A DNA stretch of 64,000 nucleotides, from positions 7,514,372 to 7,578,371 of the forward strand of contig NC_134655.1 of the NCBI RefSeq assembly GCF_030463565.1, read 5' to 3'. Position 1 is the first letter of the stretch. Every line of letters starts with the position of its first letter. This document shows positions 46,501-49,500 of the stretch, piece after piece. Source of the DNA: Pelecanus crispus. Lineage: Eukaryota; Chordata; Aves; Pelecaniformes; Pelecanidae. The position numbers were made by a program, and so were the translations under genes. The notes beneath the pieces are model-generated. The model ran no database searches, was not told the origin of the DNA, and saw only the letters and a program-made list of their open reading frames with translations.

Positions 46501-49500
46501 GAGCAGTGTCCATAACCTACTCTGAACAGTGAGCTGTTGAATATGTTTTCATATCACGTCATTGTATTTGTTTGGGGTTTCTTAAGCATGAAGGTTTGGA
46601 GTTGAATTTGTTGCTATTTCCAAATACTAAGGTATGTACACTTAAGTGATAATTCTGGCTTTCCTAATAATCATCATTCAGACCTACTTTAGTCTTAATT
46701 GGCACACTCACTCGCTATACCTGTTTGTTTCTGACGGTAAGCTTATGCAGGTTTGGTTTTCTTTTGTTGTTACTGTTGTGTGAGGTGGGTTTGTGGGGTT
46801 TTGGTTTTTCTGGTGGGTTTTAGTTTTATAATTCCTCTATGTCCTAGAGCCAGTATTAGCTGTAGTACACTTGCTGTAGAAGTTGTTTACTGTTGATACT
46901 GAAAATTATTACTGTTGATATTCTAGGATAAACTGAGAAACTCCTTGTTTAGCTATTTTGATTGTTGCTGTGCTTTTAGTGGTGGCTGCTTACTGTTTGC
47001 TGGTGGCTTCTATTTGGACTGTTGGGAAATATTCTGGGGGACTTCAGTGTAATGGAGTAGACGTGCTCTGTGTAATTCTGAACTATGTCATCCCTGCATG
47101 GTTGCCTGAGGTTGCTGGGGAACAAACTTGATCTTCCAGTCCTTTTTTTCCTGTGAGTTGGTTGTATGGGCAACTGAAGTATTTTCAATTAAAAAAATAA
47201 ATAAAATCAAGAGCTATTAGTTGAAAATCGTGTATGCCTCTCCTCTCTAGCTTCTACAGATGTTTTACAGAATAATCACATATTGTGTCTTTTACCAATC
47301 CACAAAGAGTTAAAGTTGCTCAGTTCCTTTCCAAATCTGGGTAATTGGTATAAATTTTGGAAAAGTCTTGAGTTATGCTTATGGGCTTAAGAATGCTGAT
47401 TTGCTTGATCAATCTCCAAGACATGTCCCCATTAAACTTCTTTTTGCTTCTTGCTTTGATGCATAGCGACAATTCTTTTAATACTTGATTATAATCTAGA
47501 AATCTGAGATTTGTCACTGTAAATATCTGGAATGTAGTCATACTACTAAAAATTGTTCAGGATTATAATTAAACTTATCAGGCAAGGGGTTGATGGATGG
47601 AGATCTACTTTTTTTTAATATATATATATCTATGTATGTACTTTTGGGGATGAGGGAAGCTTAATCAAGGAAAGGGTTGCAAAAGGAAATAACAGTACCA
47701 GTGCTTTTCTGCTAATATCAGTGTGACTTGCAGAGCACAGCAGTTAATAAAATTAAGACCTTAAGTGTCTGCTTTGAAGTATGAAACCCAGCAAGCTGCT
47801 GGAACATATTAAACTAACATCCTTGTTCTTAGAGATGCAAGTCCTGCAGTTCCTTATGAGATACCGGTACTCCAACTGAAATTATTAGTAAACTGTAAGC
47901 TGTTTGGGGCATGGCCTTCCTTTGTCTCTTGTTACCATTACAGTGCCAGATATAGTGCCATGTCTCTCTCTGGTGTTTTGCATGCAGCTGTTAACTATGT
48001 TACATTTAAAAGCTGGTCATTTTTGAGTGAGAAGCAGAAGAATTCCATGGTTGGTTTGGGTTTTTTTTTTCCTCCTTTCCTTGTAAAACTGCATAAAAGA
48101 ATATAAACAGATTTCTTAGTATCTGTTTCTCTTTACTTCAGGCTGTCGAAAATCTCTGCTCCTACAAGATTTCTGCAAACTTGTACAAACAATTGAGACA
48201 GATCTGTGAAGACCACATTAAAGCACAAATTCACCAATTCAGAGAATATCCTTTTCTTACCTGTTGACAAGCCAAAACGTTTTTACCTGCCAGTATGTGG
48301 TGATGGATTTCTTTGAATAGTTCGTAACAGTAGGCCGTGGTAATCTGAATTCCTAGTTTTTGCATAATTGGGTCTGTTTTCATTTTTTTTATGAGACCTC
48401 AGAGAACACTACTAGTTTCTTTATGTCTGTAACCATGTGAAAAGTTTTTGAGAAAGTTTCACTGGTACTTCTGAAACACTTTGACATCTTACAAAAGCTC
48501 ATATTAGACTTATCACGAGGCTTAAAAAGGCTATATTGGCTGTATCGCTTCAGGCTTTTTTATGTGCTGATCTTGCCATGCTCAGGTAAACGGAAAAGTC
48601 TTCTGACAAGTAGTTCCTGTTTTCTTTTTGAAAAGTGCTAGTGGTCTGGCAGCATACAATGTTAGTGGTTCTGAGGATCAAAATGTTTTATTTTCAAAGT
48701 TTTGAGTTGCATCAGATCGAGATCCTGTTAAGTGGATATTAACTAGTACCAGAGCTATGCAGTGAACTGAATACAAGTTAAATTTCAATAACAAAATTCA
48801 AAAATCTCTTAAGGTTCTCTCTTAACATGAGCTGAAATTATAGTATCTGTGTAGTGGTGGGCTCTTACATGTATTGTAGATTGTTGGGTTTTAAGGAGTG
48901 GGGATATGTATGTTTGTTCCGCTCCCCAGGGATGGGGGACTGGATAAAACATTCAGAGGTATTTAGATACTTTTTTTTTAATTGTTCAAATAGTTTTGAT
49001 TTCTCATTATTAACACAAAGATCCTCATTAAAAATAAAAATAAACATGTTGCAAGAAGTTAACTGGTTCTCTTTGGGAGTAGGTGAGTGTTGTGCTCTCT
49101 AAGTGTCCTTAAATAATAATGTCAGTTCATCTTATTGCTAACACTACCTATTAATTGTAATTTTCTTAATGATTTCTTCATGGATTCATTGGATAGTGTC
49201 CTTTTTCTAAAGAAAATAGACAAATGTTGGCAAGATCACTGCAGACAAATGGTAAGTTTTTTATCTTTCTAAAGAAAACCAGCTCCCTAGTCAGCCTATG
49301 TTTTGTTTAACTTTATTCCTTTATAAACATGCTGTGCTTCTGAAATGTTGTCTTAAATTTGTATAAGGCTTCTTCATGAAACACAACTGTATCTAGTTTG
49401 TTACAAATCAAGCCTTGAAAATACTTGTCTGTAGTGTTTTTGTTGACACATTGGTCTGATCTTGGGCACACATGCACACCCCTACACACACCCAACTCCT

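Follow-up and report, generated by a model that had tools for sequence, protein, structure and literature searches.

Coding intron 3 of the CUL4B gene of Pelecanus crispus very probably belongs to the A-type (AT-AN) class of minor-spliceosome (U12-type) introns and both begins and ends with AT. It lies at 48246–49181 on the forward strand of the window (the whole 64,000-nucleotide stretch of DNA that was analysed). Its junction is fixed by the reading frame, its donor and branch-site motifs and their spacing are those of U12 introns, and it has no GT-AG solution in the register that was scanned. From its sequence, the intron would be predicted to be spliced with the help of U11, U12, U4atac and U6atac, and to depend on CENATAC. 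A sequence-only reading had already placed an intron with AT at both ends at these positions; the junction scan agrees with it to the base, and the label "intron 3" that it used is right when the count starts from the first coding exon.

The CUL4B gene and its surroundings

The exons of CUL4B were located with a tblastn probe and joined into one reading frame.

39987–62112, forward strand: CUL4B coding region, 20 coding exons that translate into 887 residues without an internal stop (tblastn, exon joining and phmmer)

In a phmmer search against the PDB, a 714-residue piece of this protein matched Cullin-4B (4a0l_E) at 1554.9 bits, gap-free over 713 residues. The same piece matched Cullin-4A more weakly, at 1385.6 bits at best. 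We take the solved Cullin-4B and Cullin-4A proteins to be human. Because the Cullin-4B match is the stronger of the two, the gene predicted at 39987–62112 is an intact orthologue of CUL4B, which is a dosage-sensitive gene.

A long open frame at 24382–25362 (forward strand) resembles the single-exon gene C1GALT1C1 (COSMC). We take it by its look to be that gene, a usual neighbour of CUL4B in vertebrates; if so, it fits the CUL4B neighbourhood of vertebrates. Three 1-kb steps of the window, at about 23001–24000, 35001–36000 and 39001–40000, have a GC content of 67–71% (versus 30–54% in the other steps), and in these steps ORFs are open in several frames on both strands. They are probably promoter CpG islands, the one at 39001–40000 lying just upstream of the CUL4B start. 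An Rfam scan of the window at the gathering score gave no matches. A 124-amino-acid query found 41 pattern stretches in a collection of prokaryote contigs and 6 in a collection of viral contigs, with no confirmed relatives in either, as is expected for such collections.

Reading frame and splice signals at coding intron 3

Eighteen pairs of adjacent exons were put through a junction scan, in which every junction that gave the correct length over a register of 14 or 15 residues was tried and its joined peptide scored. The first coding intron (40519–43245), outside the scan, was read by eye and is GT-AG. In 17 of the 18 scanned introns, a GT-AG junction was each time among the tied best-scoring ones. 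A GT-AG reading is thus possible for 18 of the 19 coding introns of CUL4B, and the exception is coding intron 3.

48142–48245, forward strand: coding exon 3, ending ...TTC AGA GA, phase 2 (junction scan)
48246–49181, forward strand: coding intron 3, a 936-nt phase 2 intron with AT-AT ends, putatively U12-type (junction scan and motif matches)
48246–48254, forward strand: putative U12 5' splice site ATATCCTTT, 9/9 to RTATCCTTT
49162–49170, forward strand: putative U12 branch site TTTCTTAAT, 8/9 to TTCCTTRAY, with 12 nt from its second A (49169) to the end of the intron
49180–49181, forward strand: 3' terminal dinucleotide AT, one base off the canonical AC
49182–49251, forward strand: coding exon 4, starting G GAT TCA TTG GAT AGT (junction scan)

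In the 14-residue register, the peptide QIHQFREDSLDSVL is kept at coding intron 3 by two junctions, AT-AT (48246–49181) and TA-TG (48247–49182). GT-AG, GC-AG and AT-AC junctions were not found in this register, which leaves no U2-type combination of a GT or GC donor with an AG acceptor in it. The sequence-only reading had held that the exons meet in frame, as FRE/DSLDS, only if the intron has AT at both ends. That holds against the GT-AG, GC-AG and AT-AC pairs and has to be relaxed for TA-TG, which keeps the peptide as well. The frame at this place is firmly fixed, because the junction peptide around FRE/DSLDS is identical in solved CUL4B and a 15-residue part of it is also identical, and uninterrupted, in solved CUL4A.

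The first and last bases of the AT-AT intron are therefore set by the coding frame, uniquely apart from TA-TG, on the presupposition that the base at 49181 is correct. The intron end is a single base away from the canonical form – a C at 49181 would make a plain AT-AC intron – and the T could in principle stem from faulty sequencing or assembly, or be a rare allele. We consider this very unlikely. The rest of CUL4B is without signs of error, with its gap-free alignment of 713 residues and its lack of internal stops. AT-AT is moreover a class already known in animals (PMC10639083), so that a true AT-AT end would have a much higher prior probability than an error at precisely 49181.

The signals at the two ends of the intron were compared with the U12 consensus sequences, RTATCCTTT for the donor and TTCCTTRAY for the branch site. 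ATATCCTTTTC begins at 48246, and its agreement with the donor consensus is complete, as had been claimed for it. At the other end, TTTTCTTAAT occupies 49161–49170, and the branch site within it departs from the consensus at one position (T for C). The spacing of 12 nt between the branch A and the intron end, also noted before, falls within the range for U12 introns, in which the branch A lies roughly 10–20 nt from the 3' end. Between 10 and 20 nt past the branch A there are three A-N ends, at 49181, 49185 and 49189; all are AT, and only 49181 is in frame.

These signals are rare, both in the gene and in the window. The best other donor among the 18 tested introns of CUL4B matches 7 of 9 positions, versus 9 of 9 at coding intron 3, and an 8/9 branch match occurs in one other intron. 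In both-strand counts over the window that include coding intron 3 itself, 14 of 127,940 sites have a 9/9 match to RTATCCTTT no more than 3 bases away. Branch matches of 8/9 or better lie 10–14 nt ahead of 380 of 127,780 sites, and 7–20 nt ahead of 1,063 of 127,780. If the donor and branch signals are independent, both would be expected together at roughly 3 sites in 10 million.

The other intron with an 8/9 branch match is the GT-AG intron 11 (55023–56136, forward strand), in which TTCCTCAAC lies 11 nt from the end and the donor matches 6 of 9 positions; it is probably a normal U2 intron. A second exact copy of ATATCCTTT, at 51736–51744 on the forward strand, is found within the GT-AG intron 51569–52685 of CUL4B, away from its ends, and is probably a chance occurrence.

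Pairing energy with U11 and pyrimidine content were dropped as discriminators because the GT-AG introns of CUL4B score equally well. Pairing with a U11 snRNA fragment gave −5.8 kcal/mol at coding intron 3 and −6.6 kcal/mol at the GT-AG intron 2. The pyrimidine content before the 3' end is 0.75 in coding intron 3 and 0.62–0.88 across 17 GT-AG introns. With a U12 fragment, the branch site forms a less stable duplex than the consensus does (−5.4 versus −8.3 kcal/mol).

Other acceptors and donors, and possible effects on CUL4B

An AG in exon 4 provides another potential end of the intron, which would make it AT-AG.

49195–49196, forward strand: in-frame AG in exon 4, the first one after the branch site and 27 nt past the branch A; its use would change EDSLDS to D

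Its position in frame, as the first AG after the branch site, is in its favour. However, an intron ending at 49196 would yield FRDVLFL instead of the native 12-residue stretch, with the loss of five residues that solved CUL4B and CUL4A both have in identical form, and the distance of the AG from the branch exceeds the usual one in U12 introns. As the main 3' splice site it is extremely unlikely. It may possibly act as an alternative 3' splice site, with a predicted protein five residues shorter.

Equally improbable, in our estimation, is a U2 (major) intron, or a twintron with competing U2 sites as published for CUL4A, whose intron is described in PMC3564746 and PMC8329584 as a U12 intron within a U2 intron: AG sites are present near exon 4 and weak GT sites within coding intron 3 (the best scoring 4.5, at 48340, with 3.9–12.8 for 17 GT-AG donors elsewhere in CUL4B), but the AT donor scores −11.3 on an approximate U2 matrix, the GT sites above a cut-off of 3 on that matrix are all weak and all inside the intron, with none in exon 3, and no GT-AG pair in the scanned register keeps the peptide. 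A minor share of competing U2 splicing is possible.

For a U12-type intron with AT-AT ends, U11 would bind the donor ATATCCTTTT and U12 the branch site UUUUCUUAAU, and the minor spliceosome would place the 3' cut behind the AT some 12 nt beyond the branch. It could cut there because U12 introns starting with A tolerate any last base following the final A. If the intron were retained, translation would soon end.

48265–48267, forward strand: TGA, in frame upon intron retention, reached after six intron codons

Slow splicing would with this stop reduce the amount of CUL4B protein, probably via nonsense-mediated decay. A broader scenario can be drawn from these elements – CUL4A and CUL4B would share a single U12 intron that predates their duplication, the AT-AT end in CUL4B would splice slowly and depend on CENATAC, minor-spliceosome activity would set the CUL4B dose, and the in-frame AG at 49196 would be an alternative end. 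As a whole we regard this scenario as rather unlikely.

The intron would offer a clean example of an AT-AT minor intron with frame-fixed ends, and it lies in a ubiquitin-ligase gene that is well conserved. Gene predictors that demand GT-AG would misplace introns of this kind. If conserved, it would tie CUL4B expression to the activity of the minor spliceosome and of CENATAC. Existing knowledge of splicing is unchanged by it.

Comparison with known minor introns

The sequence-only reading had counted AT-AT among the rarest terminal pairs known, which is too strong. In a 2023 survey of conserved animal minor introns, just one non-canonical end pair is commoner than AT-AT (PMC10639083), and a 2021 study includes it in the human A-type minor introns, together with AT-AC, AT-AA and AT-AG (PMC8280824). 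In the survey, all non-canonical ends together make up about 3.8% of conserved animal minor introns, and from the wording we infer that AT-AT must account for less than about 1.4%. The 2021 study also found that loss of CENATAC affected 92% of human A-type minor introns, a figure for the class. In chicken, "other" ends make up 3.4% of U12 introns (PMC7367187). An AT-AT minor intron is uncommon, yet of an already described type. Searches of open-licence PMC main text turned up no description of coding intron 3 of CUL4B; an entry in supplementary tables or U12 intron databases is quite possible. Main-text passages of two papers on minor introns (PMC6865273 and PMC6717393), searched for cullin or CUL4, had no match.

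The paralogous gene CUL4A also carries a U12-type intron. Human CUL4A is among 18 genes with a U12 and a U2 intron at one place in Table 1 of PMC3564746, and PMC8329584 puts the U12 intron inside the U2 intron. A strong competing U2 pair, as in that twintron, was not found in coding intron 3 of CUL4B. The same table gives CUL4A a U2 product of 149 amino acids and a U12 form of 789 amino acids. FRE/D lies near residue 123 of CUL4A (2hye_C numbering), and the 149-residue product could fit an intron near that residue, at FRE/D. The fit is suggestive only, and the numbering may not correspond, because the U12 form in the table has 789 amino acids versus 759 residues in the 2hye_C chain.

The canonical AT-AC U12 introns have the same donor, branch site and spacing as coding intron 3 of CUL4B, which differs from them in its last base, T and not C. 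The closest likeness is to the AT-AT subclass of animal A-type (AT-AN) U12 introns, with which it shares the U12 donor starting with A, the branch site near the end and the AT-AT termini. No difference in sequence from that subclass was seen, and the CUL4B intron seems to be a typical, well-formed intron of a small class that was known before.
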